From positions 1 through 35,009 of the forward strand of contig CAIZJW010000256.1 of assembly GCA_903933385.1 (NCBI GenBank): a stretch of DNA of 35,009 bases. The letters run 5' to 3'. The position numbers and the translations under genes are program-made. The notes beneath the pieces are model-generated. The model saw nothing but the letters and a program-made list of their open reading frames with translations. It did no database searches and was not told where the DNA came from. How positions within the stretch are numbered: position 1 is the first letter of the stretch; every line of letters begins with the position of its first letter. Below are positions 5,814 through 33,623 of the stretch, piece after piece. The DNA is from an uncultured Silvanigrella sp. (GTDB taxonomy: Bacteria; Bdellovibrionota_B; Oligoflexia; Silvanigrellales; Silvanigrellaceae).

Positions 5814-5861
5814 GTGGTCGTTCGGCTGTCTGTCATGCAATTTTTCCGAGAAACAAAAACC

Positions 5862-7670
5862 ATGACTCTCCGAGCCTTGGGCGCTGCCACACTGGCCGTG
5901 CCATTTCTATTTATTTGTTCGCACCTAGCTCAAGCATCGTCCTTAGACAAAGAAGCCTCAGCGACTCCGGCAGAGTTCGCGGCTTCGTTGCGTTGGGGGC
6001 GACAAGGCCCCGATTCCGAATCAATGGAAATCACCACAGCTCTGAGCACCATTTTTCAGCAACAAGCCAACGACATTAACTTTTCTAAACGTGGACTCAC
6101 AAGCCTCCTCGAGCAGGGTTTACCGCGTCAGCTCGGACGTCTTTTTCCGTTTCGGCGGATGCATCAGGTGCCTGCTCAATTCTTTTTTGAAAATTTTGCA
6201 CCTGTTGCTTTTCTCGTTGGAGAACTCAACACACGAGTTCCTCCGATTCTTGCTGAAACCGACACGGCAGAGTGGCTTGAACTAAAAAGCAGAGATCCTA
6301 TCCCCCCTGCGCGCGAACTGAATCCTCCGCTTCCAGTTGCACAAGGACTGCGAACTTTGTCCCTGCAAAATCCCTGGGCAAGCGAGATATTTTCCGCTGC
6401 ATGGAGCAATTATTTTGAATCAGCGGCAGCCATAGTCGAAAATGGAGGCCTCAATTGTTTGCGAAAGTCCCTGAAGAAAAATGATGTTGGAAGTCAGACA
6501 TTGCCGGCCCATTTTCGTTGCAGCACTCCTCTGCAAGCGCTTTCAAAAGACAATGGAATTCCAAAACTACTTCCGAGAAAATTGGGACCTTTGACGGTAC
6601 CCCAAAACAACACGGCTCCGACTTCTGCAGTGCAACCCACGTGTATTCCTATGGGCCGCATGAACATGCAAGCACTCGAATTGCTCGGCGACGAAAAGGC
6701 CGGCCACTGCTTGCTCTGGCGCGCTTCAAAAGACGAAAGGTTTCAGCAGAGATCGTTCTCCTCGAAGCTTATTTGCCTGAATGCACGACATAAGAGTTTT
6801 CAGCGCACGCGTTTCAATTCGGTTGTCGCAGTGCTGCCCTCCAGCCGTCCTGATGCGCTTCATATTCTGGAATCCGAAGATGGCCTCATCACCGCTCATC
6901 GCTTGAGTCTTGCAACATTGAGCATTGGTAAAGAAGAGATAACCACCAATTCCGGACAAAATTTACGCAACGCAACTTTTCCACAAAACCGAAACGGGCT
7001 TTACGCGTGTCAGCAACCATCGGCACCCAGTGCACAGCCCTTTCCAAGCACAGAGACTCTCGGTGCGAACGTGGAATGGGTGTACCTCGACGACTCTGTT
7101 TATTCTGGTTTGAGAGCGGTCCGCCCCGAAACTGATGTTGCTTGGCGTCTCAAAGAAACCTCCGACTCATCCATCGACGTTGAGAGATTGAATTGGTCGC
7201 AGCTTTCGTATGACCACCCCTCAATCACGGCCGATCGCACATTTGCCTGCTCCGCAGCGCGTGATATTGATGCGAAATGTGGAATACGAGTTCTTCAAAC
7301 TGCGTTGCAGATCTCTGAAGAATGGCTTTCCGGAGAATTTGATCGCAGCGAATTCCCAATCCAAGTCCAATTGAGCGCAACCCTTCTCGTTGCTCAAGCG
7401 CTTGAGAAAACCATGCTCACGCTCCCTGAGTGGGCATTGCGAGAAGAAACCGAAACACTCCTTGGATTCTTTCGGAAAAAATCGCAGGCTCTTTCGGAAA
7501 ACCGCGCATTTGCGGGCAATGCACCGAGAATCGAACGCAACGGAAAAGCTATTCCCACAGCGCGACGCTACTTGGACATTCCGCGTGATTCACAGGAATA
7601 TCTCACCATCAAAAATTCAATTTCTTCGGCAGGCGACTTCTGGGCATTGCTCAAGCAGAAGCCTCTTTGA
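5862..7670 (+). CDS. Unknown exported protein, about 600 residues
   Basis: I do not recognise this protein. The ATG at 5862 gives a good signal peptide (MTLR, then a hydrophobic core, then LAQA before SS), so the product is predicted to cross the inner membrane. The reading frame is open from a GTG at 5814, directly after the rpoZ stop, and an ATG at 5835 is also possible. There is no lipobox and no later membrane span. The mature part (about 575 residues) contains scattered cysteines (for example near residues 186, 207, 245, 266 and 387) that could form disulfides. It has no repeat or catalytic motif I can name. The C-terminal third is helical and charged. It sits between rpoZ and metG, eight bases before metG, so it is probably cotranscribed with them. 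Confidence 0.8.
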   Translation: MTLRALGAATLAVPFLFICSHLAQASSLDKEASATPAEFAASLRWGRQGPDSESMEITTALSTIFQQQANDINFSKRGLTSLLEQGLPRQLGRLFPFRRMHQVPAQFFFENFAPVAFLVGELNTRVPPILAETDTAEWLELKSRDPIPPARELNPPLPVAQGLRTLSLQNPWASEIFSAAWSNYFESAAAIVENGGLNCLRKSLKKNDVGSQTLPAHFRCSTPLQALSKDNGIPKLLPRKLGPLTVPQNNTAPTSAVQPTCIPMGRMNMQALELLGDEKAGHCLLWRASKDERFQQRSFSSKLICLNARHKSFQRTRFNSVVAVLPSSRPDALHILESEDGLITAHRLSLATLSIGKEEITTNSGQNLRNATFPQNRNGLYACQQPSAPSAQPFPSTETLGANVEWVYLDDSVYSGLRAVRPETDVAWRLKETSDSSIDVERLNWSQLSYDHPSITADRTFACSAARDIDAKCGIRVLQTALQISEEWLSGEFDRSEFPIQVQLSATLLVAQALEKTMLTLPEWALREETETLLGFFRKKSQALSENRAFAGNAPRIERNGKAIPTARRYLDIPRDSQEYLTIKNSISSAGDFWALLKQKPL

Positions 7671-14415: not shown

Positions 14416-15050
14416 GAATCGAAGATGCAATACTCACTTACTGTGGATTCCTCGTTGCCATAACAATGCGCGAGGCAGCACACGCAATCACCGCCCGTGC
14501 CCTTGGCGATCGTTCACTCGAAACTGAGTCTCGAGCGACTATCAACCCGGTGCCGCACATTGATTTGCTGGGAACAATTATTTTGCCGGGAGTCTTTCTC
14601 CTGTCAGGAATCCCGTTTCTTCTTGGTTGGGCAAAACCACTCAACATCGACACCCGCTATTTCAAGAAAATGCGCCGGGACATAAATATTGCAGAGTTGG
14701 CTGGCCCCCTGACGAACTTCGGCATTGCTGTAATTTGTGGCGCAATCGCATTACTGCTTGGCTATAAGGTAGAAATGATGTGGGCTGGCCAAGATCCGGT
14801 TCCACGTCTCCTACTTGCAATCGCTCAATCAAATATTGTGATTGGTCTGCTCAACTTGCTTCCGTTCCCAAACTCCAGTGGTTGGCGTCTGCTGTTGAAC
14901 AACATTCGCTATCAATGGGCACAGTCGCTGATTCAACACGCGAACATAATCAGTATCGTAATGCTCGTCCTTCTTTTGACGAATGTCTTGAGCCCTTTGT
15001 TCATGGGTGCGATAGGCTTGTATCTGTTCGTTCTCCAGCGCATTGCTTAA
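14403..15050 (+). CDS. Site-2-protease (M50)-like membrane protein with degenerate active site
   Basis: 215 residues with about five membrane spans, overall a good match to the short rhomboid-like/YdiL-neighbour class of M50 site-2 proteases. It keeps ATINPVPHIDLLGTIILP, GWAKPLNID, RRDINIAELAGPLTNF and NLLPFP in family order. Two catalytic features are changed. The HEXXH helix reads MREAAHAI (R23 for the first histidine; E24 and H27 kept). The LDG motif that supplies the third zinc ligand reads PNSSGW (residues 156-161). It is therefore probably a pseudoprotease. The ATG at 14403 lies inside the end of dedA and gives the conserved N-terminus; a longer upstream frame encodes no family-like sequence. 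Translation is likely coupled to dedA. Confidence 0.8.
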   Translation: MASLRIEDAILTYCGFLVAITMREAAHAITARALGDRSLETESRATINPVPHIDLLGTIILPGVFLLSGIPFLLGWAKPLNIDTRYFKKMRRDINIAELAGPLTNFGIAVICGAIALLLGYKVEMMWAGQDPVPRLLLAIAQSNIVIGLLNLLPFPNSSGWRLLLNNIRYQWAQSLIQHANIISIVMLVLLLTNVLSPLFMGAIGLYLFVLQRIA

Positions 15051-15085
15051 ATGCAAGAGGGAGCGCACTGAATTGTGGAGCCCTC

Positions 15086-16144
15086 ATGGAATTACTAAAC
15101 TACAACATCTACTCACATGCCGATGCTGATGGCGGCATAGCGTCCGCTATTTTTGCTCGGTATTTGAAGCAGATCTCAGGAAATTTGAGAACCGAGATTT
15201 CGGTTCATCCAGTGAATCACGGCCCTGATCAACAAGACTGGACCCTGACTGAACTTAAATATCCTTGCGCTATTCTCGATTTCTCCCTGCATCCATCCTT
15301 TCTTACAGAAAAGTTCTTCTCGATTGCGGGTGAAAGTGTAGAGTCTAAAAATAATCCGCTCGGATGCTACTGGATTGACCATCATCCCACGGGAGCAGGA
15401 GTTCCATTTCTGACTCCTGAAAATTGCCAGCAATATCTCACACACGTGAAAAGCCTGTGGGATGTGACGGCCACCAGCACTCCTGGTCTCATGCGCAAGC
15501 ATCACAAGACCCTTGGAATACCTCGTGAACTCATTGAAGAGTATGAGGAGTTAATTGATCAAGCCGAAATTATTGATGCCGCGATGTTCGCCAATGCACA
15601 ATCAGCTCACGATTTTTCGAGCAATTCGGTTAAACTTCAGACTCTTTTTAGTTCATCACATCCCTCGATTGATCGCGTTGCTCTCTATAGAAACTTGGTA
15701 AAGCAACTTATTATTTCACCGCGCATCGAAGATTTGATGAACTCTGACCCTATCTACTCTGCGCTGATCGAACACGAACAAAACCTCGTGTTGCAGCAAC
15801 GACAGGTTTATGCGGACAAAACCGTAGTTGATCAAAAAATAGCGCTGAGCAATTTCATGAATTGGCCCGCCGATGAACAATTTCCCGGCATGGGAAGATT
15901 CATCCCGTACCTCCTCTATCCGGAGATACTCTACGCAATTCATATACAACCCAACAAATCAGGAATTTCTTCCATTTCTTGTGGGATCAACCCCTGGAAC
16001 AAGCCCAAAAAAGGGGACAAGCACCTCGGCAATTACTTTGCAACCCATTTTGGCGGCGGGGGTCACGCATTTGTTGCAGGCGGAAGGATAACCACACGAG
16101 AAAGCCACAAAATCGATGAACTTGTAAATTTTCTCAAAAATTAG
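15086..16144 (+). CDS. DHH/DHHA1-family phosphoesterase
   Basis: 352 residues. The family holds Mn-dependent phosphodiesterases and phosphatases (NrnA-like nanoRNases, pAp phosphatases, RecJ-like nucleases). Ligand motifs are present in order: SHADADG (H11, D13, D15), ILDFS (D65), and the name-giving D98-H99-H100 followed by PTG. The C-terminal DHHA1 substrate-binding motif is HFGGGGHAFVAGG at about 321-333. The middle section (about 130-300) differs from standard NrnA. I therefore do not assign a substrate. GGAG lies five bases before the ATG at 15086. It follows the pseudoprotease gene by 35 bases and is probably cotranscribed. Cytosolic. Confidence 0.82.
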   Translation: MELLNYNIYSHADADGGIASAIFARYLKQISGNLRTEISVHPVNHGPDQQDWTLTELKYPCAILDFSLHPSFLTEKFFSIAGESVESKNNPLGCYWIDHHPTGAGVPFLTPENCQQYLTHVKSLWDVTATSTPGLMRKHHKTLGIPRELIEEYEELIDQAEIIDAAMFANAQSAHDFSSNSVKLQTLFSSSHPSIDRVALYRNLVKQLIISPRIEDLMNSDPIYSALIEHEQNLVLQQRQVYADKTVVDQKIALSNFMNWPADEQFPGMGRFIPYLLYPEILYAIHIQPNKSGISSISCGINPWNKPKKGDKHLGNYFATHFGGGGHAFVAGGRITTRESHKIDELVNFLKN

Positions 16145-23019: not shown

Positions 23020-23490
23020 TCAGGGTGCGGGAGCAGGTGCAGGCGATGCAGCTGGCACGGGAACCACTGGAGCCTGAGACGCTTCGCCCGCAGGGGCAGC
23101 AGCAGGTGTGCTCACCGGAGTCACTGAACTCCCAGAGCCTTGCGCAGGCTCGGCAGCCGTAGCTGGAGTGCTCGCTGGCGAAACTGCTGGAACGGCTCCT
23201 GGAGTGGGAGTCGCTGAGAGCGCTGAATCGAGCTCGCGAGTGACACCGAACTTCTCATGGGTTTTAACCCATGCCAAAGCTGTTGAAAGGCCAAAGAACG
23301 CAGCTCCAAAGATCCAGGTGGCACGAACTATGAGCGCTACACCACCCGAAGCACCAAAGAACCCAGCTGAATTGCCTCCGCCGAACGCCGAGCCGATTCC
23401 GCCTTCGTTCCCATGCTGCAAAGCAACAATCAAAACGATGAGCACGACGCTCACAAAGATAAGCAATGCAGTAAGGAGACCGACAAGCAT
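23020..23490 (-). CDS. secG: Preprotein translocase subunit SecG with long Ala/Pro tail
   Basis: 156 residues. SecG is the small membrane subunit of the SecYEG channel. The core is typical: a first span LLTALLIFVSVVLIVLIVAL, then the diagnostic QHGNEGGIGSAFGGGNS and FFGASGG, then a second span near residues 57-76. After residue about 95 comes a tail of nearly 60 residues made almost only of Ala, Pro, Ser, Thr, Gly and Val, ending PAPAPAP. E. coli SecG is about 110 residues, so the tail is an extension. The ATG at 23490 gives the normal short N-terminus; the open frame 28 codons upstream is not family-like. Its own promoter lies upstream. Confidence 0.92.
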   Translation of the reverse strand: MLVGLLTALLIFVSVVLIVLIVALQHGNEGGIGSAFGGGNSAGFFGASGGVALIVRATWIFGAAFFGLSTALAWVKTHEKFGVTRELDSALSATPTPGAVPAVSPASTPATAAEPAQGSGSSVTPVSTPAAAPAGEASQAPVVPVPAASPAPAPAP

Positions 23491-23536
23491 ACGACCCAAC
23501 CCCCGAAAATACCGGAAACAAGACTCGAACTCCGAG

Positions 23537-23564
23537 CTATTACACAAAGCAACGGACAGCTCAA
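23537..23564 (-). promoter_or_regulatory. Promoter of secG
   Basis: Minus-strand TTGAGC (23559-23564), 16 bp, TAATAG (23537-23542), about 45 bases before the secG ATG. Confidence 0.45.
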
Positions 23565-23581
23565 GCTTACGCACCCTCCCC

Positions 23582-23702: not shown

Positions 23703-26195
23703 ATGGTTCGCTCCAGCAGCACGAAAACGTCAAAAGAAAAGAAAACCGAAACCGCCCGCCCGAGCAAATCTGGCAGTGGCAAAGCGGTCGCAAGCAAAAC
23801 TGTGCCTGTGAGCAAATCAGCAGCAGACAGCTCGAAAACCAAGAGTCCTGCGAAAAAAACAACAGCAATCAAAACCAAGGCTGCACCCGCTGCAAAAACA
23901 GAGGCCGTTAAAGCCAGCACATCGAGCCGACGCACAAAAGCAAACGAGACAGCGCAACCCTCTAAAAGTAAGAGCGGTTTAGCAAAAGCGAAGTCGCCGA
24001 AGCCCCAAACTCTTGAATTGTTCGAGCATGTATCGGTCGAGCAAGACACACCTGTGGTCAGTGTGCTTCCTGCACTCAGCGACGAGCCCATTGATCCCAA
24101 CATGGCAGATATCGAAGCCAAGACGCCGCCCGAGTTTCGCGACGCAGTAGTTCCGCACTTCAGTGACGCATTGCCAACAGGCCTAGAAACAAAGGGAACC
24201 GAGGGGCAAACGGAACCAAAGCAAGAAGTGACTTTCAGCTATCTTGGCTTCAACGACTTAATCCTCGAAGCCATCCGAAAACAAAAATTTGATAAACCGA
24301 CTCGTGTGCAAGCTCTTTGTTTGCCCTTCACACTTGATGGCAAGGATGTTGCGGGATTTGCGCAAACCGGAACCGGTAAAACAGCAGTTTACCTTCTGAC
24401 TGCTGCCCACAAACTCCTCAGCCAGGAAAATCGGCAAGTTCAACCGCACAAGCCACACGTTCTTGTCGTCGTTCCTACGCGCGAATTGGCCGATCAAGTT
24501 TCGCAGGACGCAAAGCGACTTCTTGGTAGCCTTCAACTCAAGAGCATTGCAGTATTTGGCGGTGTTGATGTTGAGCGCCATGTGAGTGAACTCAGCCAGG
24601 CAGTTGACCTTGTCGTAGCCACACCCGGACGTTTGCTCGATCTTCACCGCAGCAAAAGACTTGAACTCGACGACATTCAACTACTCGTTATTGACGAATG
24701 CGATCGCATGTTCGACATGGGATTTATTGATGACGTTGAGTACATATTGCGTCATCTGCCTACAGAGCGAGTGCAGAAACTTCTTTTCAGTGCAACCGGG
24801 AGCGAAAAGGTAAAGGAACTCGCGTTCGAATATCTTGAAGAACCCGAATACATTGAAACCGATCCAGTGAGCATCACTCCCGAGAAAATCACTCAGGTCG
24901 CTTACGCCGTCTCAGCGGAGCAAAAATTTCTAACTCTGATGGGCCACCTCAAGGCGAACAACCCCGAATGTGCAATTATCTTCACAAACACTAAGGTGGT
25001 TGCTGAATGGGTTGGCTACAAACTTGCCTGCAATGGCCTCAATGCAGAAGTCCTCACTGGGGATCTTCCGCAGCGTAAACGCATGTCACTCATTAAAAAA
25101 ATCAAGGAAGGCAAATGCAGCCTTCTTGTGGCAACCGACGTACTTTCTCGTGGTTTGCACGTTGCCAATCTTTCGCACGTCTACAACTTCGACATCCCAG
25201 ATGATGAAGAAAGCTTCATTCACCGCATAGGCCGTACTGCACGCGCCGGTGCAACCGGACACGCCATCACTCTTATCTGTGATGATTATGGCTACAACAT
25301 GGGCGCGGTGGAAAAGCTTCTTGGATTCAGCATTCCACTGGAACCAGTGCCAAGTTCCTATCTACAAGCAGAAGATACCTCCGACTATCCATTCGATAGC
25401 AACGGCCGGGTTAAGGTCTTTGGCCAAACACACGAAGCGGCCGGACAAGAAGGTGAAGAGTCATCCTTCGAAGCACCTCAACAAAAACGTCACGAGAAGC
25501 GAGATGATCGCCCTGCAGCCGCAGAACGCGGACCACGGAGTGAACGCCCAGAGTCCACTCTGCCACATCACCGGCGTGATGCTGGCCGGGGAGCACAAAC
25601 TGAACGCCATGCTGCTCCGCGCCCTCAGCAAGAAAAACACATTGAGAATTCGGGGCCCATCGCAGCTGCAGCACCAGTGAGTGTTCCGGTGGCGGCACAC
25701 AGCCGGCCAGTCGACGGACCACAACCTGTGTCCCAGCGTCCATCAACGGCAGCTCCGCAGACTCACGCTCCGCATCAGGGACCAGTGCGTTCTGCCGCGC
25801 CTCACGCGGCCGGCCCGTCTGCACCAGCAGCTCGTCCGACACATGCAGTACATTCTAACGCCACCTCGACGCCACGCCGCGATGAGAAAGCTAAAGAGAC
25901 AATTGAAATGGCAATTCAGGCAGCTAAAAAAGCCGCTGCTCGCAGACAGGGCGGCCATGGCAGCTCTGGTTCTGCAACAACGCCAACCGTTAAAAAGCAT
26001 GGAAAAACTCGCGTCACGGAACAAATCGATGAAATTGCAGCAGCAGTTCTCACCGGAGCGCAAGAGAAGTTGGGCGGAGCATTCGGAAACCTCCAAGATC
26101 GTTTTGTTTCAAGGCTCGAAGAAAATTTCCCGAGACTCTCGGAAACTCTCGTGCGCCTTGGATTTTTCTCAAAACGATTCACCGACGACAGGTAA
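23703..26195 (+). CDS. DEAD-box ATP-dependent RNA helicase with long disordered tails
   Basis: 830 residues. Helicase motifs are all in order: Q motif RVQALCLPF about residue 200, Walker A AQTGTGKTA about 220, PTRELADQ about 258, TPGRLLDL about 308, Walker B DECD about 331, SAT about 363, ATDVLSRGLHV about 478 and HRIGRTARAG about 506. DECD instead of DEAD is a tolerated variant. It unwinds short RNA duplexes in ribosome assembly, cold response or RNA decay. Residues 1-170 are Lys/Ser/Ala/Thr-rich and look disordered; residues about 560-750 are rich in Pro, His, Ala, Arg and Gln. The last 75 residues form a conserved-looking helical end. RhlB, RhlE and SrmB types cannot be separated by eye. 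Confidence 0.93.
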   Translation: MVRSSSTKTSKEKKTETARPSKSGSGKAVASKTVPVSKSAADSSKTKSPAKKTTAIKTKAAPAAKTEAVKASTSSRRTKANETAQPSKSKSGLAKAKSPKPQTLELFEHVSVEQDTPVVSVLPALSDEPIDPNMADIEAKTPPEFRDAVVPHFSDALPTGLETKGTEGQTEPKQEVTFSYLGFNDLILEAIRKQKFDKPTRVQALCLPFTLDGKDVAGFAQTGTGKTAVYLLTAAHKLLSQENRQVQPHKPHVLVVVPTRELADQVSQDAKRLLGSLQLKSIAVFGGVDVERHVSELSQAVDLVVATPGRLLDLHRSKRLELDDIQLLVIDECDRMFDMGFIDDVEYILRHLPTERVQKLLFSATGSEKVKELAFEYLEEPEYIETDPVSITPEKITQVAYAVSAEQKFLTLMGHLKANNPECAIIFTNTKVVAEWVGYKLACNGLNAEVLTGDLPQRKRMSLIKKIKEGKCSLLVATDVLSRGLHVANLSHVYNFDIPDDEESFIHRIGRTARAGATGHAITLICDDYGYNMGAVEKLLGFSIPLEPVPSSYLQAEDTSDYPFDSNGRVKVFGQTHEAAGQEGEESSFEAPQQKRHEKRDDRPAAAERGPRSERPESTLPHHRRDAGRGAQTERHAAPRPQQEKHIENSGPIAAAAPVSVPVAAHSRPVDGPQPVSQRPSTAAPQTHAPHQGPVRSAAPHAAGPSAPAARPTHAVHSNATSTPRRDEKAKETIEMAIQAAKKAAARRQGGHGSSGSATTPTVKKHGKTRVTEQIDEIAAAVLTGAQEKLGGAFGNLQDRFVSRLEENFPRLSETLVRLGFFSKRFTDDR

Positions 26196-26198
26196 ACA

Positions 26199-27413
26199 AT
26201 GGCAACTCAGCGGGATCAAATTCTCCTGAAAGTTGCATCCCTCAACACGTGGCATGGACTCGATGGACATGGCACGTTTTTGTTTGGTCAGCTTGAATCC
26301 AGAGCGGAGCGAATGGCGCGGCTCGAAAGGCAAATCTCCTGCCTCAAAAGCCTCAATGCAGATCTCCTTCTCCTCCAAGAGCTCAATCCACTTCCGTTTC
26401 GTGCTCATTGGTATGCGCAAAAGCTGGGAATGAGAGCTGAATATGTGTCATGCAATTCTGGAATCAAACTTGGGTGGGGCCCACCGGGCAACTTGAACGA
26501 GGGCCTTGGAATCCTATTTCCAACCGACTGGCAACACGAATTCCTAGGCCGAAAAAGGCTCTCAGGGGAACTGCGTTTCAATCCTCTGCGCATTTCCGCA
26601 GTCACTGGTCCGTTTTTAAGTTTTCAGTTGCATGAGTCGCGCGTTGCTTTTGCAATGCGTTTTAAAATACCGCCAGAACGGCGCATCAATGGATACGAAG
26701 GTCGCAATTCACTCTTGGTTGCCGTAACGCATCTTCACGTTTCGCACGAGCAAACTCCCCGCAATGAGAAGCTTGTCAAACAAGCGGAGAAAGAAGGAAA
26801 ATTAACGGCGGCCGAAGTTGAACTTATGAAAAAACATTTTCGCTTCGCAAATACACGCCGCATGACAGAAGTCGATCAGTTGGCAAGTTGGCTGGAAACT
26901 TTGCGCCAACCTGATGAACCAATTCTTGTTGCGGGAGATTTCAATTGCGAACCGCAGAGTGCACCTTACAACGCCCTCCTGCGACGAGGGTGGCATGACC
27001 TTTGGCTTGAATCGGGAAACAGTAGCGATCTTCTCGAAAGCGCCACCTGGGATGCTCCACGCAACACTCTCACCGAACGCGTGAAGGAATTTCAGCATTC
27101 AACCGCCCGAAAGCATCCACACATAGCGGAAGTACTCAAGCAGGCTGATTCACTGCCACGCCGGATTGATTTCATGTTCGGACAACCGGCTAAGAACAAT
27201 CCTGCCAGCAAAAACTTTCAACTTGGAGCTTCGGGGCATTTGCTCCGAGTGAAAAGATTTGGCTACCTATCTGGTAATCCACTCACAAGCGAGACACTCA
27301 TCTCTGACAATTTTGACGATTACAAATCGCGAGATGAATTCTCCAACCATGCCGGTGACGACCTAAAGTTTATCTCGGACCACTTTGGATTGTGCGCTGA
27401 ATTTGGAATTTGA
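26199..27413 (+). CDS. Endonuclease/exonuclease/phosphatase (EEP) family protein
   Basis: 404 residues, no signal peptide. The EEP fold covers Mg-dependent phosphohydrolases such as exonuclease III, DNase I-like enzymes and sphingomyelinases. Visible active-site blocks are N16 in SLNTWHG, E61 in LLLLQELNP, VTHLHVSH near residue 177, GDFNCEP near residue 248 (Asp and Asn), and SDHFGL at 393-398 (Asp-His). All are in canonical order. A Lys/Glu-rich helix (about 185-215) follows the first half. It begins three bases after the DEAD-box stop, so the two are probably cotranscribed. Whether it acts on nucleic acid or on a small phosphoester is not evident; the RNA-helicase neighbour gives a weak hint of RNA. 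Confidence 0.85.
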   Translation: MATQRDQILLKVASLNTWHGLDGHGTFLFGQLESRAERMARLERQISCLKSLNADLLLLQELNPLPFRAHWYAQKLGMRAEYVSCNSGIKLGWGPPGNLNEGLGILFPTDWQHEFLGRKRLSGELRFNPLRISAVTGPFLSFQLHESRVAFAMRFKIPPERRINGYEGRNSLLVAVTHLHVSHEQTPRNEKLVKQAEKEGKLTAAEVELMKKHFRFANTRRMTEVDQLASWLETLRQPDEPILVAGDFNCEPQSAPYNALLRRGWHDLWLESGNSSDLLESATWDAPRNTLTERVKEFQHSTARKHPHIAEVLKQADSLPRRIDFMFGQPAKNNPASKNFQLGASGHLLRVKRFGYLSGNPLTSETLISDNFDDYKSRDEFSNHAGDDLKFISDHFGLCAEFGI

Positions 27414-27420
27414 AATTCTT

Positions 27421-28215
27421 TTAATTCGATTCCGCTGAAGCCGACATGAGCCAAGTCGCGGCCGCCACAGCGGCAGGAGTGCGAAGAATACGTGGACCCA
27501 GACTCACGAATTCAATAGGCCGCTGCGTTGCATGATCTGCAAGGTAATCATACTCGCGCTGACTAAAGCTCGCTTCAGGCCCGACCACGCATGCCCACGA
27601 TCGATTTTTCGAGTTCTTCAAACATTCAAGCAGATGACGTGAACCAGTTTGAAATTCAGAATGAATTGGACGTTCGTCACAAACAAAAAGTTCCAACACC
27701 TCCGAACCCGAAATTTGAATGCATCTTTCAACTGCCGAAGAAAGATTTTCCGACAAAACAACTTCCAGATTCCAGGGTGATTTTGTGATGCGGTTCAATT
27801 CTGCGACCTGCTTTCGCAACTTTTCTGTCTTGAAATCTTGCTTTGAGGTACTGCGTTCTCCACGAAAGAAAACGAGCAGATCAATCCCTGACTCAACACA
27901 AGCCTGAACAACTTCGTCGAGAGCTCCGGGTTTAGGTAACCCTACTATGGCAAAACGACCAAATTGGCTTTTATCAGCAAAAAACTCTGACTGAATTACT
28001 ATCTCAACAGATTTCTTGCGCATAGAGACAATCGGTCCGCGAGCAGTCCATCCACAACCATCCGCCAGTTCTACTATCTCACCCTCTTTGAGTCGAAGGA
28101 CTTGCGATGCAAGATGAGATTCATCCTCACTCAGCTGCACACGGGAATTAGAGCCACTCGGGGAGCTGTCACGAGGCGCATAGAATCGCCAAACCTGTTT
28201 ATACTCTTGGCTCAT
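27421..28215 (-). CDS. rsmE: 16S rRNA (uridine1498-N3)-methyltransferase
   Basis: 264 residues. RsmE uses SAM to methylate U1498 of 16S rRNA. The N-terminal PUA-like part (residues 1-75) has SHLASQVLRLKEGEIVELADG. The C-terminal SPOUT knot carries AIVGLPKPGALDEVVQACVE, CVVGPEASFSQREYDYL and FVSLGPRILRTPAAVAAA. In most RsmE the last motif continues R-(A/T)-E-T-A after ILR; here it is RTPAA, and GPEGG is GPEAS. The glycine-proline-glutamate core remains. The ATG at 28215 overlaps the stop of the upstream gene by four bases, so it is the last member of a five-gene set. It is about eight bases from the convergent EEP gene. Confidence 0.9.
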   Translation of the reverse strand: MSQEYKQVWRFYAPRDSSPSGSNSRVQLSEDESHLASQVLRLKEGEIVELADGCGWTARGPIVSMRKKSVEIVIQSEFFADKSQFGRFAIVGLPKPGALDEVVQACVESGIDLLVFFRGERSTSKQDFKTEKLRKQVAELNRITKSPWNLEVVLSENLSSAVERCIQISGSEVLELFVCDERPIHSEFQTGSRHLLECLKNSKNRSWACVVGPEASFSQREYDYLADHATQRPIEFVSLGPRILRTPAAVAAATWLMSASAESN

Positions 28216-28730
28216 CTCTCAGCTCCAATTTTGGCGTCAAAGGGAAACTCTTGGAGATAACTCATTCTCGCTACCTCAGACGCCGATATAAATTCGACGT
28301 CTTGCATCCACTCGACGAAGGTTACGAAAAGTATGTCAATCTCTTCATACAACCTTGAGCTCATGAACGCGTCATACTTCAAAAATAAATCCGGAAAAAT
28401 CACCAAAATCTTTCTCCAGCTTTCTTTATTCTCAACTTTTGCAAGAGAAAAATCTTCGTGAACTTCATCTGGGAGGAACGGTAGAGACTGAATTGAAAGC
28501 ATTTTTTTAACGCAAATGAGATGATCGAAAATCAATTTCGAAAAATCTGCACTTATTCGGGAATCACTCCAGACAGCGCCAAGCTTGAGAGTCGTGTGTT
28601 CATGGTTGGGATACTTTACAAGCGCATGAAATACATCTTTGTTGCGATGTATAAAAAATTCAGTCACAGCAAAAAACGCAAGCGTCAGCACTGTCTGAGG
28701 AAGGCAGAAATGATCGTTCGACGTTTGCAT
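28212..28730 (-). CDS. Unknown 172-residue protein coupled to rsmE
   Basis: Not recognised. An N-terminal hydrophobic stretch (VLTLAFFAVTEFFI, about residues 14-27) is short and could be a buried helix rather than a membrane span. The rest is mostly helical, rich in aromatic residues and charged. A middle segment with LIFDHLICVKKML and a WRKILVIFPDLFLKYDAF segment stand out. There is no catalytic pattern. An AGGAG stands about eleven bases before the ATG. It overlaps rsmE by four bases and starts 15 bases after the stop of the gene at 28746-29603. Because rsmE stands alone or next to prmA in many genomes, the pairing is unusual. Base composition resembles its neighbours. Confidence 0.75.
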   Translation of the reverse strand: MQTSNDHFCLPQTVLTLAFFAVTEFFIHRNKDVFHALVKYPNHEHTTLKLGAVWSDSRISADFSKLIFDHLICVKKMLSIQSLPFLPDEVHEDFSLAKVENKESWRKILVIFPDLFLKYDAFMSSRLYEEIDILFVTFVEWMQDVEFISASEVARMSYLQEFPFDAKIGAER

Positions 28731-28745
28731 TGGAATGAAAGCTCC

Positions 28746-29603
28746 TTACCGTGGAGCAGATACCGCAAGACTGATGTCCACAGGACCATCATTCATTGTT
28801 TGAGCCTTCAGCGCAGGAATCTCTTTCGAGAACCTCGCAACGACTTCCTGAATCTTGCCCCTAGGAATTTTTGTCTGATACAGGATGCCATCTTTGCTGA
28901 CATCAACGGGCACCAGATGAGTCTCGGCAACTCCCTTTGAAAAGGCCTTTACCACAGATTCCAATGAAGCCAATTCTCGTTCCGAGATCTTTTTATCGAC
29001 AAGAACTCGCAAAGCTTCCTGGTTGGGGGCAGGCGCAGAGGGAGCTCTCCAGGAGCGCTGAAAACTACTGCCAATCCTCTGCATTATTTTTAAAACTGTC
29101 GAAGAATTCGTTGGGTCTTGTATCGCACGACTCCAGTACGAGCGCAGAAACCGACCGTCCACCTGAGCCCATGCGTCAACTCTCTCGAGAAGAACGGGCT
29201 GCTTCTCAAATACTTTTACCCCAAAAACAACTGAAACTCCTTGTGGCTGACTCAATCCAGACACCGTGAACGGCACCTCTGGAGGCCAAACCTGCGGATC
29301 TCGCCTGACCCCGCTGAGACTTCCAAGATTTTTAATTATTCCGCCCACCCGCGTTGCGTGATCAGTTGACCAGGTTGTTTTCACCACTGAAGAAATTTTC
29401 GGAAGCATACCTTGCGCCAAGGAAGCACACATTTGATCGAGCGAACTGGCAGAAAACTCGGAAACAACAATATTAAGCTTGATTGAAGCGCACGGCTTTG
29501 CACCCTCAATGCGAGAGGCCGCTTCAGCAGGAAGAACGTATACATCTCGGGTCGTCTCGTTGATAAGAAACATCGCTATCGGAACTAGAGCCGCTGCAGA
29601 CAT
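28746..29603 (-). CDS. Unknown, possibly exported, 285-residue protein
   Basis: Not recognised. The first 15 residues are hydrophobic (AALVPIAMFLI) with almost no positive charge. This makes either a weak signal anchor or a truncated signal peptide. Cysteines occur only near residues 38 and 59. The C-terminal third has an amphipathic helix ERELASLESVVKAFSKG and ends with a beta-rich segment. The mature part may alternate beta strands and helices (for example FTVSGLSQPQGVSVVFGVKV). It begins 12 bases after the previous gene's stop and ends 15 bases before the next gene, fitting a single operon. No lipobox or domain I know is visible. Confidence 0.72.
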   Translation of the reverse strand: MSAAALVPIAMFLINETTRDVYVLPAEAASRIEGAKPCASIKLNIVVSEFSASSLDQMCASLAQGMLPKISSVVKTTWSTDHATRVGGIIKNLGSLSGVRRDPQVWPPEVPFTVSGLSQPQGVSVVFGVKVFEKQPVLLERVDAWAQVDGRFLRSYWSRAIQDPTNSSTVLKIMQRIGSSFQRSWRAPSAPAPNQEALRVLVDKKISERELASLESVVKAFSKGVAETHLVPVDVSKDGILYQTKIPRGKIQEVVARFSKEIPALKAQTMNDGPVDISLAVSAPR

Positions 29604-29615
29604 TTTTGACCCGCC

Positions 29616-30335
29616 TTAGTTGGCATTTGCCGGAGTAGATACCGGCGCATCCTTTGACTTCTCCGGGGCGTCAACAGCAGGCTCGACAGATGCGAAGAGA
29701 TTAGAGTTCTCAAGAAGTGAAGCATCCTCTGAGGAGGCCGGCTTTAGATTTCCGCCGACTAATTCAAGGCTAACAACCTTTGCTCCAGATTCGGATGCAC
29801 CTGAGAGCGGATTCAAGTCAATGATTTTTCCGCCGACGCTCACACTCACCAAGCCACACTTGATATTTGCCAGCGAGAGACGCGGAACTTTAAGGGCCAA
29901 CGGAGCACCGCCTTTTGTCTTGAGTGTCGCGGGCTTTCGTGCCACGTTTTTGAAAACTTCACGAAGCGGAGCTACCAAAGAAATCTTCAACACACCGTTC
30001 GAAAAAATCTCACTTCCCTGTGATTTTACACTTCCCTGCCACGACGGAAGAGATACATTTTGTTCAGCAGAACCAGCATTACAAAGACTTGTTAGTTTAG
30101 AATTAAGATTTGCAATCCCGTTGCGTCGCGCAGTAATTTCAGCGTCCAAACCACCACGTTTTCCGCCATTTTCGGGTGTGTATATACCGAAAAACTGAAC
30201 CTGACGTTGCGAAAAGTCGAAGGTTATTTGAGTGTCATTTTTTAATTCTGCTGCAAAAGAATTAACTGAATAAACCACACCAACTAACGTTGCCGCAACT
30301 GCTGAACAACGAAATAATTTCAAAAAAGAGTTCAT
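29616..30335 (-). CDS. Unknown secreted protein with signal peptide, 239 residues
   Basis: Not recognised. A standard signal peptide is clear: MNSFLKLFR, hydrophobic AVAATLVGVVY, and likely cleavage at SFAA-ELKN. The mature protein is beta-rich and probably periplasmic, with a TFDFSQRQVQFFGIYTPENG start and several Val/Leu/Lys-alternating stretches. The end is Ala/Pro/Ser/Asp-rich and looks disordered. Only two cysteines follow the signal (near residues 88 and 163), which could pair. GGAGAG seven bases before the ATG at 30335 fixes the start; an ATG at 30356 overlaps the previous stop and would spoil the signal peptide. It lies between a membrane-anchored coiled-coil gene and another unknown gene in one operon. 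Confidence 0.8.
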   Translation of the reverse strand: MNSFLKLFRCSAVAATLVGVVYSVNSFAAELKNDTQITFDFSQRQVQFFGIYTPENGGKRGGLDAEITARRNGIANLNSKLTSLCNAGSAEQNVSLPSWQGSVKSQGSEIFSNGVLKISLVAPLREVFKNVARKPATLKTKGGAPLALKVPRLSLANIKCGLVSVSVGGKIIDLNPLSGASESGAKVVSLELVGGNLKPASSEDASLLENSNLFASVEPAVDAPEKSKDAPVSTPANAN

Positions 30336-30352
30336 TTCGCATCTCTCCAAAA

Positions 30353-31744
30353 TCATGTATTCACAGTTTCAAGTTCACTGTTATCAAGGTCATCGGCTGG
30401 TTGCGATAATTGCAGCTCCAAAGCCATCGCCTGAAAGCTCGACTCGAGAGTCAGCGTCCATCTATGGGTTTCCTGCCAAACTCGATTATCGATAACTTGG
30501 CTATAGCTGAGTTGACTTAAAAGGACACGAACGTCTTGCAAAAGCGACGGGAGCCTGCTCATTTGTTTTGCAAGTTCAATTTTGTAATCCATCTCAATTT
30601 CAATCGTAAAATTTTCATCGATTATTTTCTTAATCCGAGTATGGCTTTCACGCAGAATGGCCTCGTTGTGCCCTTTGAGTAAGCGTCGCACTCTTCCTTG
30701 GGATTCTTCCAGGGTTGAAATGAGTACAGCCCGCTCCGCTTCAACATTTAAAAGTCTGTCGACTTCCGCCTTGAACCAACTAAATGTGTGTCCCATGTCT
30801 TCAGGTAGTTCGCCAAAAAGCTCACGCAAACGAGGTTTGTAAAGATCGATGAAAGATACGAGTCCCGCAGTTACCGACGGGTTCTTTTCAGCACGCTGAA
30901 ACTCGGAGCGCAATTCGCGCAATTCTTCGAGAGTCCTTCTCACGGTTTCAAGCGGCACGTCGCCGAGAATTTCTTTAATTTCCTCGGCAGCAATCACACC
31001 TTCATCGGCAATCTGCAAGCGGCGCTCCTCACGCCGACGCGATTCAGCCATGTTGGCAAGCTGATTTTCTATTTCACGTCGTCGATTCCACAAGCTGAAT
31101 GCCACCGGAGCGCACAGCGGAATACTTACGACTAAGACGCAAATCAACAACGCAAGATTGAAGCCTCTCCTCACACTGGCAAGCCGTTCGAGGGCATTTT
31201 CCTTTCGCTGTTCGATGCGCTGGATATTTTCTTCGTATCGCTCGCGATTCTGAAAATGAAAAATTGCATCGCATAAATGCTCGGCGTTATCGGCATAGGG
31301 AAGAAGACGGTTGAGCGTCTTGTAACGAGAATATTTATGCAGAATATGCGATTCTGCATGCGCAAGATTTTGCTCGAGAAATTGCTTCGCACGCTGATGG
31401 TTCAGCAGAAACTTCTGTCTCTCTGCATCCTGCAGCGCGTTCCACAATCGCAACGTATTACTGAGATCGTCGATTTCACATTGTTGTCGCTTCATCTCTG
31501 CCTGAAGAGCATCAAACTGCGCCGTGCGCTGGGAGAGAACGACGTATGCATCTTTCGCTCTGAGCCACTGTTGTGCTTCATCGGGCACCGCTGAGCGCGA
31601 AAATTCCTCGAGGACCATTAACGAACGTTCAGCACGTCTAATGTGAACAGCACGAATTGCTTGTGGAGCCTGTGCAAATGTAACAGCAAGCACTCCAAGC
31701 TGATTGCCTAGACGAGATAGCTCATCTGAACTCACAAAAGTCAT
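30353..31744 (-). CDS. Membrane-anchored coiled-coil protein of unknown function
   Basis: 463 residues, not recognised. Almost the entire protein is charged helix typical of coiled coil (Arg, Glu, Gln, Leu repeats), broken by one strong hydrophobic span at residues 195-219 flanked by RR and NRRRE. About 190 residues lie on one side and 240 on the other. There is no signal peptide, so topology is uncertain. The two helical arms flank the membrane span nearly symmetrically, a layout reminiscent of membrane-bound scaffold or division-ring regulators such as EzrA/ZapG in general shape only. The ATG at 31744 is used; a TTG at 31801 extends the frame but adds unlikely sequence. It is the first gene of the five-gene set ending at rsmE. 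Confidence 0.78.
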   Translation of the reverse strand: MTFVSSDELSRLGNQLGVLAVTFAQAPQAIRAVHIRRAERSLMVLEEFSRSAVPDEAQQWLRAKDAYVVLSQRTAQFDALQAEMKRQQCEIDDLSNTLRLWNALQDAERQKFLLNHQRAKQFLEQNLAHAESHILHKYSRYKTLNRLLPYADNAEHLCDAIFHFQNRERYEENIQRIEQRKENALERLASVRRGFNLALLICVLVVSIPLCAPVAFSLWNRRREIENQLANMAESRRREERRLQIADEGVIAAEEIKEILGDVPLETVRRTLEELRELRSEFQRAEKNPSVTAGLVSFIDLYKPRLRELFGELPEDMGHTFSWFKAEVDRLLNVEAERAVLISTLEESQGRVRRLLKGHNEAILRESHTRIKKIIDENFTIEIEMDYKIELAKQMSRLPSLLQDVRVLLSQLSYSQVIDNRVWQETHRWTLTLESSFQAMALELQLSQPADDLDNSELETVNT

Positions 31745-31979
31745 ATTATGTCCGCTTCGTGCAAAGACCTCTTGGGGAGGCCGACCTAAGGATTCTGGCA
31801 AAACAGCCTAATGAGAGTATGACCCGAATCTTGGGGGTGGGAAACCAAACGGGGCGTCAAAACGCTGGACTCCCGAAACCTCTGCAAATGATTGAAAGCA
31901 CCAAATTTTACAGAACTTTTTTACCTTGCCCCAAACCTGTTCGATGTGGTAGTCGTCGCGTTGCAATTGGGAGGGGTCC

Positions 31980-33623
31980 ATGCCTGCAGATTTACGTGAA
32001 CTTGAAGAACAAACTCAGCGCAGACGCACGTTTGCCATTATTTCACACCCCGACGCCGGTAAAACCACTCTAACCGAAAAGCTACTGCTGCTTGGTGGTG
32101 CAATTCGCCTAGCTGGCTCGGTGAAAGCCAAAAAATCGAAAAAATTTGCGACTTCCGACTGGATGGAATTGGAAAAACAACGCGGAATTTCAGTTTCAAC
32201 AAGCGTGATGAATTTCGAATATCGAAACTTTGTCTGCAACCTGCTTGATACCCCTGGACACCAAGACTTCTCGGAAGACACCTATCGAACATTGGCGGCA
32301 GCAGATGCGGCCATTATGCTTATTGACGGCGCAAAGGGTGTAGAACCTCAAACGATCAAGCTTTTCGAGGTTTGCAAAATCCGTCAAATTCCGATCTTCA
32401 CTTTTGTGAATAAAATGGACCGAGACGCTCGTGACCCATTCGATCTCATGGATGAAATTGAGCAAGTTCTTGGTATTCAAACATACCCAATGACTTGGCC
32501 AATCAGCAGCGGCGAAAGATTCAAAGGCGTTATTGAGCGCAAGACCCGTCTCGTGCACTTTTTTCAAGGAAGAAACACAACTCTTGAAACACCAGCACAA
32601 CTCATTCCGCTAAACGACAAAGAGCAGCTCAGCGCTCTGGTGCCCGAGGCGGATCTCGAATCCACACTCGAAGGACTGGAGATGGTCGACACTGCAGGAA
32701 ATGATTTTGCCGAAGAGGCATTTCGCCGCGGTGAAATCTCTCCTGTGTTTTTTGGCAGTGCAATGACGAACTTCGGTGTTCGTGCATTTCTAGAGGCGTT
32801 CTTGGAAATGTGTCCTGGCCCTAGTTCCAAGGGGAGCAGTGCTGGTCCGGTCAATCCACTGTCTCAAAATTTCAGCGGCTTTGTTTTTAAGATTCAGGCC
32901 AACATGGATCCAAAACACCGCGACAGAATTGCCTTCCTAAGAATTGTAAGCGGTGTTTATGAAGCGGGACTGATGGTGAATCATTCGCGCCTTGGTCGCG
33001 AAATTAAGCTCACTCAACCGCAACAATTCTTCGCGCAGGAACGCACTGCGAGCGAACGAGCTTACGCCGGCGACATTGTCGGCATTTACGACCCCGGAAT
33101 TTTCGCAATCGGCGACTCACTCACTGAGCAACAAAAATTCGAGTTTGAAGGAATCCCACAATTCGCTCCGGAGAACTTTGGAGTGGTTCGAACATCGAGC
33201 GCGCTCAAGCGAAAACAACTTCTCAAAGGCCTCGTGCAACTTTGCCAAGAAGGCACTGTGCAGATGTTCGTCGACGAATCCAGAGCCGCGAGTGACCCCA
33301 TTCTTGCAGCAGTGGGAGTGCTTCAATTTGACGTCCTCTTGTTCAGATTGCGTAACGAATACAATGTTGATTGCGCACTGGATATTCTTCCCTACAAACA
33401 CGCACGCTGGACGAACGTCTCGGACACGGAAATTGCAGAAGCAAAAGAAAAAACTGACGCAACCGTGGTGCGGGACATGCAAGGAAATGCTCTGTTCTTA
33501 TTTCGCAACGATTTCAACATCTCTTATTTTCAAGAGACCTGCCCGAAAGTGGGTCTGTTCCGCAGCAATGCGACGCTCAAAGGCAACATGATGCGCTCCG
33601 CATCATCATTTTTCGACGAATGA
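31980..33623 (+). CDS. prfC: Peptide chain release factor 3
   Basis: 547 residues. RF3 is a GTPase that recycles RF1/RF2 from the ribosome after peptide release. The G motifs are clear: SHPDAGKTTL at about 22-31, the RGISVSTSV switch I at about 68-76, DTPGHQDF at about 89-96, and NKMD at about 144-147. RF3-specific sequences include WPISSGERFKGV and, late in the protein, FEGIPQFAPENFG and the C-terminal GVLQFDVLLFRLRNEYNVD. The length is slightly above the E. coli 529. A strong GGAGGGG lies just before the ATG at 31980 (three-base spacing). The intergenic stretch upstream holds no obvious promoter by eye. Confidence 0.96.
   Translation: MPADLRELEEQTQRRRTFAIISHPDAGKTTLTEKLLLLGGAIRLAGSVKAKKSKKFATSDWMELEKQRGISVSTSVMNFEYRNFVCNLLDTPGHQDFSEDTYRTLAAADAAIMLIDGAKGVEPQTIKLFEVCKIRQIPIFTFVNKMDRDARDPFDLMDEIEQVLGIQTYPMTWPISSGERFKGVIERKTRLVHFFQGRNTTLETPAQLIPLNDKEQLSALVPEADLESTLEGLEMVDTAGNDFAEEAFRRGEISPVFFGSAMTNFGVRAFLEAFLEMCPGPSSKGSSAGPVNPLSQNFSGFVFKIQANMDPKHRDRIAFLRIVSGVYEAGLMVNHSRLGREIKLTQPQQFFAQERTASERAYAGDIVGIYDPGIFAIGDSLTEQQKFEFEGIPQFAPENFGVVRTSSALKRKQLLKGLVQLCQEGTVQMFVDESRAASDPILAAVGVLQFDVLLFRLRNEYNVDCALDILPYKHARWTNVSDTEIAEAKEKTDATVVRDMQGNALFLFRNDFNISYFQETCPKVGLFRSNATLKGNMMRSASSFFDE

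Follow-up and report, generated by a model that had tools for sequence, protein, structure and literature searches.

Trans-envelope scaffolds such as Tol–Pal, or the Campylobacter PflA/PflB–FlgP disk set (PMC12222027), pair a helical protein of the inner membrane with co-encoded partners in the periplasm. The proteins FlgP, FlgT and Lpp20 have a common SHS2-like fold (PMC12222027); in a fold of this type a helix lies across one face of a three-stranded sheet. FlgP possesses in addition a long beta-hairpin insert, between the helix and the second strand, that is linked to ring formation (PMC12222027). Lpp20 (HP1456) and HP1454 of Helicobacter pylori have been tied, by co-precipitation or interaction, to FapH and to the basal-disk protein FlgP (PMC11756786). 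Here we discuss four genes, designated A, B, C and D, from an uncultured species of Silvanigrella, that recall such systems in their layout, although no member of Tol–Pal or of the PflA/PflB–FlgP set is related to them in sequence. The stretch of DNA analyzed, ‘the window’, is a complete contig of 35,009 bases (CAIZJW010000256.1). TolA, unlike protein A, is not built around a single mid-chain hydrophobic segment. Genes A–D constitute a real, conserved and undescribed gene module. We put at roughly 0.5 the probability that this module is specific to the order Silvanigrellales and encodes a previously undescribed cell-envelope complex; from the evidence reviewed below we infer that the four products form one complex, on which side of the membrane each half of A lies, and what the whole might do.

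A packed gene set and its conservation

Genes A (30353–31744; 463 amino acids, aa), B (29616–30335; 239 aa), C (28746–29603; 285 aa) and D (28212–28730; 172 aa) lie in this order on the minus strand, with A in the lead. They are followed, on the same strand, by a gene for an rsmE-like 16S rRNA methyltransferase (27421–28215). On its other side A is divergent from prfC, the gene for peptide chain release factor 3 (31980–33623, plus strand), a neighbor that is conserved in the family designated f1. The spacings A/B, B/C, C/D and D/rsmE are 17, 12, 15 and −4 bases, the last being a 4-base overlap of rsmE with D; these are exactly the values reported in a first-pass annotation made from the sequence alone. 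The 17-base gap presupposes that the second ATG of B (30335), upstream of which lies GGAGAG, is its start; a possible alternative in-frame start at 30356 would produce a 4-base overlap with A.

Because orthologues of A–D keep their order and orientation across several genera, the arrangement of the five genes is more than chance. The order A–B–C–D–rsmE, adjoining prfC and divergent from it, is kept in g1 (the genus of the window), g2, g4 and g5. Spacing is tight nearly everywhere, −4 overlaps included; the exception is a pair of g5 species in which 121 bases separate A from B. Large negative B–C values in g5 are upper bounds, measured from the longest C start. In this genus B and some D genes were overlooked by a simple gene caller, and were recovered by later searches that included B, C and D profiles.

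Profile searches find A in all 15 Silvanigrellales genomes and in none of 43 others in the phylum. B is found in 15/15 as well, C in 14/15 (it is missing from G013) and D in 13/15 (missing from G004 and G014), and single-sequence searches recover the same 15 genomes for A and B. The A–D profiles have no credible match in about 41–43 other genomes of the phylum; outside the order, those of B, C and D return chance-level matches only (E 0.01 or worse). A public collection of 84,980 species was scanned by pattern, with A only, a procedure less sensitive than profile searching. The relatives named there are Silvanigrellales metagenome-assembled genomes (MAGs), Spirobacillus cienkowskii and Fluviispira multicolorata. 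Since the phylum set excludes some lineages of the wider Bdellovibrionota, and the larger collection was scanned in this restricted way, ‘order-specific’ is used here to mean specific within the set searched. No relative of A was found among viral contigs, and none on plasmids.

A–D have no match at a meaningful score in Pfam, NCBIfam, PHROGs or PADLOC, whether single proteins or members of their alignments are searched, and their profiles have no sequence match in the PDB. For the window’s own A–D, PADLOC gives no match; its weak matches are of PDC-S05 to one D homologue (E 0.0014) and of Csm2 to one A homologue (E 0.027). Only rsmE, as the first-pass annotation said, belongs to recognizable families. 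That annotation also named two outcomes that would speak against a module—homologues scattered without a conserved neighborhood, and clear matches to known families. Both were looked for and neither was found: homologues of the 463-residue protein A keep their neighborhood, and the signal-peptide protein, B, adjoins A in every genome that can be checked.

Departures from the full order are few. In G014, which belongs to another family, A, B and a C homologue (profile match E 9.9e-51) stand in a row, and neither rsmE nor prfC adjoins them. G004 has A–B beside prfC, C elsewhere beside the gene for formate–tetrahydrofolate ligase, and no detectable D. G013, a 72%-complete MAG, has B–D–rsmE with no C between (contig G013:C89; L062:1-1741). 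The A–B pair is thus invariant, and C nearly so; D was added at the level of the family, and rsmE and prfC are neighbors. We regard the last two as neighbors rather than parts because A–B–C persists without both in G014; this, and the split set of G004, makes rsmE dispensable, and it is to be dropped from the system. What survives of the five-gene unit proposed at first is a conserved, packed module of four.

It can be argued that the operon is one of history: that A and B cooperate, and that C, D and rsmE share the promoter without being related to them. Only the A–B adjacency holds wherever it is checkable, C has moved in G004 and been lost in G013, and D, absent from two genomes, is very divergent. 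The survival of the A–B–C order in a second family, away from the rsmE and prfC neighbors, points instead to A, B and C being linked in function, and we consider the historical explanation improbable.

The A and B proteins

Protein A consists mostly of helix. Its one hydrophobic segment, which the first-pass annotation took for a central membrane span, lies at about residues 197–219. The segment contains conserved Cys and Pro residues (C202, P209, C211 and P213), and the region surrounding it, about 140–300, is the best-conserved part of the protein. The description of A as ‘nearly all coiled coil’ went too far. Heptad-like periodicity exceeds that of shuffled sequences only within about 43–112, 113–168, 264–375 and 362–445; it is strongest at 278–361, and Pro and Gly are scattered through the C-terminal half. 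A match of A to HpaA (E 1.9e-4) scores 20.8 bits where the cut-off is 274.65, extends over 119 helical residues and comes from one model only; it was attributed to composition and rejected. A is 75% identical to its orthologue in a congener, G001. The 192,796-base contig that carries this orthologue is also the public record VGHE01000006.1 (L031), whose title, ‘Betaproteobacteria bacterium’, is apparently misassigned.

The flanks of the hydrophobic segment are highly charged, Arg and Lys being plentiful on both sides, so that both are strongly positive and the positive-inside rule favors neither orientation. It is unlikely that an N-terminal half of 196 residues would be exported with no signal, and for this reason we take that half to be cytosolic. 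The positive flanks and the conserved prolines inside the segment mean that a re-entrant (monotopic) A, with both halves in the cytosol, is also possible. A and D, and in the window’s genus C, would then act cytosolically, for example in shape or division, and B would act separately in the periplasm. The 22-residue segment, with its two prolines between Arg/Lys-rich flanks, suits this arrangement, as do the N-terminal half without export signal and, in the window’s genus, a C without signal peptide. Members of the order, too, are described as pleomorphic, spirals included (PMC10645651). The arrangement leaves the tight, universal pairing of A with an exported B unexplained, however, and no cytoskeletal family match was found; we think it very unlikely.

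Protein B carries a signal peptide, identified by inspection as MNSFLKLFRCSAVAATLVGVVYSVNSFA-A, as first noted; no B member has a lipobox Cys at the cleavage region. The first domain (about 45–134 in 246-aa numbering) is modeled as a beta-beta-alpha-beta-beta unit, with invariant G57, E73, A76, R77, C92 and W106 and an SxGSEI motif. The second part is a beta domain, with an invariant C167-G168, that leads into a Pro/Ala/Ser tail. C92 and C167 might form a disulfide.

The model of B has a predicted local distance difference test score (pLDDT) of 75.6, and is of high confidence in domain 1. When PDB structures are searched with it (Foldseek), HP1454 ranks first (E 0.071, probability 0.90) and Lpp20 second (E 0.097, probability 0.96), with template-modeling (TM) scores by target of 0.23 and 0.49, respectively; the E-values are not significant. 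These H. pylori proteins are the nearest to B in the PDB, on the strength of the modeled domain 1, and all are exported envelope proteins. By eye, B resembled LPP20/FlgP proteins, and the structure model bears this out weakly; membership in the LPP20 family is not supported. Comparison of B with the order’s own LPP20-family proteins by hhalign gives 0.1% probability (E 0.82), none of 14 B members matches Pfam LPP20 (PF02169), and a genomic search for LPP20 omits the B loci. No sequence or profile relation could be shown between B and Lpp20, HP1454, PF02169, FlgP or FlgT. B differs from LPP20 and FlgP, further, in its want of a lipobox, in its second beta domain and conserved Cys pair, and in its model, which is without FlgP’s long hairpin; the model has an insert of ~18 residues with a short helix, of low confidence at 95–100. 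B may nevertheless work like LPP20/FlgP proteins. The order does have genuine LPP20-family proteins: those of genera g5 and g3 (L053–L061) are about 320–335 aa long and share a C-terminal region.

The module might be an accessory of the flagellar motor, in which B would form a periplasmic or outer-membrane ring or cap in the manner of FlgP, FlgT or Lpp20, C would be the adaptor and A the anchor. The two best PDB matches of domain 1 point this way, given the ties of HP1454 and Lpp20 to FlgP and FapH and the SHS2-like fold described above, and FliG_C is present in 15/15 module-bearing genomes. Besides the poor E-values and the failed profile comparison, two observations weigh on the other side. 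FliG_C is present also in 37/41 relatives that lack the module (in some only as weak paralogues), and so the module is unnecessary for flagella in general. And no flagellar gene adjoins it in any genome examined, its neighbors being prfC, rsmE, fatty-acid and other non-flagellar genes. On these two counts we leave the flagellar reading open without favoring it, and rate it as rather unlikely. Most genomes of the phylum contain two to five FliG_C-domain frames, several of them of ~600–1000 codons besides the normal FliG of ~340.

C, D and the surrounding genes

The model of C (pLDDT 76) comprises two alpha/beta domains. In g2, g4, g5 and G004 the protein starts with a signal peptide or a longer hydrophobic leader, whereas in all three species of g1, the window’s included, it opens directly with the domain’s first beta-strand. 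The hydrophobic N-terminus singled out at first pass is there, but in alignments with other genera it falls on beta-strand 1 of their mature domain, and C of the window’s genus is without a signal peptide. Since a real signal peptide precedes this strand only in other genera, export of C in the window’s genus is doubtful. Of the two partners first taken to be exported, then, B remains so, and C does so outside the window’s genus.

Fold searches with C yield ribosomal and hibernation-factor matches (E 0.03 or worse), which we read as generic alpha/beta similarity. PqiC-type ABC-transport auxiliary lipoproteins (8q2c, 8q2d) match weakly (E 0.16–0.21, probability ~0.2), and resemble C loosely in their order of strands and helices. 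These matches do not rise above noise, ribosomal proteins are placed ahead of them, and C has neither a lipobox nor an MCE-type operon partner. The C proteins of g5 (L022–L027) have a CxxC motif (e.g. CEYC) just past the first strand that is absent in other genera.

In the window’s genus B has gained a linker-like tail rich in Pro, Ala and Ser (29540–29700, minus strand; L016:10340-10500; L017:9480-9660), and B and C share a frame there, separated by a single stop in two species and by three in the third. Because of the shared frame and the tail, read-through into a B–C fusion was considered. It was rejected: the separating stop is TAA in one of the two species and TGA in the other, and the third has its three stops.

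Protein D is small, fast-evolving and without a signal peptide. It is 32–33% identical to its congener orthologue, where A reaches 75%, and W141, E161 and P163, near the C-terminus, are conserved. In a selection test, synonymous divergence (dS) was saturated. The adjoining rsmE matches PF04452 (E 8.4e-18; 64.9 bits against a cut-off of 23.9) and TIGR00046 (73.7 bits against 41); its N-terminal PUA domain, PF20260, scores 21.2 bits, just under the cut-off of 23.9.

The divergent region between A and prfC (31745–31979) is presumed to hold the promoter; a simple scan of it revealed no sigma-70-like site above chance. At the other end of the set, an Exo_endo_phos protein gene (26199–27413) is convergent with rsmE, seven bases away. 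Elsewhere in the window are a 618-aa frame (5814–7670, plus strand) that has no Pfam match and a four-base overlap with the methionyl-tRNA synthetase gene; a 454-aa frame (14780–16144, plus strand), also without Pfam match; an extended SecG of 184 aa (23020–23574, minus strand), in which the SecG domain occupies residues 33–102 only; and an 830-aa DEAD-box helicase (23703–26195, plus strand) with a long Lys/Ala/Ser-rich N-terminal extension and a low-complexity C-terminal one.

A candidate envelope complex

Because its genes travel together through the Silvanigrellales and are not found outside, the module probably builds an envelope structure, undescribed and particular to this order. A would be fixed in the inner membrane by the hydrophobic segment at its center and serve as a helical scaffold. 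B, secreted to the periplasm, would be its conserved partner; C would be an adaptor of two domains, located in the periplasm in most genera, and D a small cytosolic accessory. No enzyme family or catalytic motif is recognized for A–D in the family libraries, and for this reason we favor a structural role over an enzymatic one: the products might bridge or reinforce the envelope, perhaps around the flagellar motor or a similar machine.

The signal peptides on both B and C in g2, g4 and g5 are consistent with an envelope complex of this kind, and so are the retention, in the second family, of A–B adjacency together with a C homologue and the finding that the model of B comes nearest to two periplasmic H. 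pylori proteins. Other points weigh against it. C is without a signal peptide in the window’s genus, missing in G013 and relocated in G004, and D is missing in G004 and G014, so that neither C nor D is an obligatory part in every genome. The transmembrane topology of A is not secured, because both flanks of its segment are positive. Operons, moreover, also combine functionally unrelated genes. The ‘envelope-spanning assembly’ of the first-pass annotation is a reasonable inference rather than a result. We suggest only tentatively its most developed form—a trans-envelope machine, fixed in the ancestor of the Silvanigrellales, with A as scaffold, a possibly ring-forming B, C as adaptor and D in the cytosol.

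To the order belong a parasite of Daphnia, Spirobacillus cienkowskii, and two pleomorphic genera, Silvanigrella and Fluviispira; four library-orphan families kept together across it are good candidates for a lineage-defining trait of the envelope. If the products do form a complex, they would add a new set of components to the few known trans-envelope scaffolds or, should the weak likeness to FlgP and Lpp20 be real, a new kind of motor accessory.

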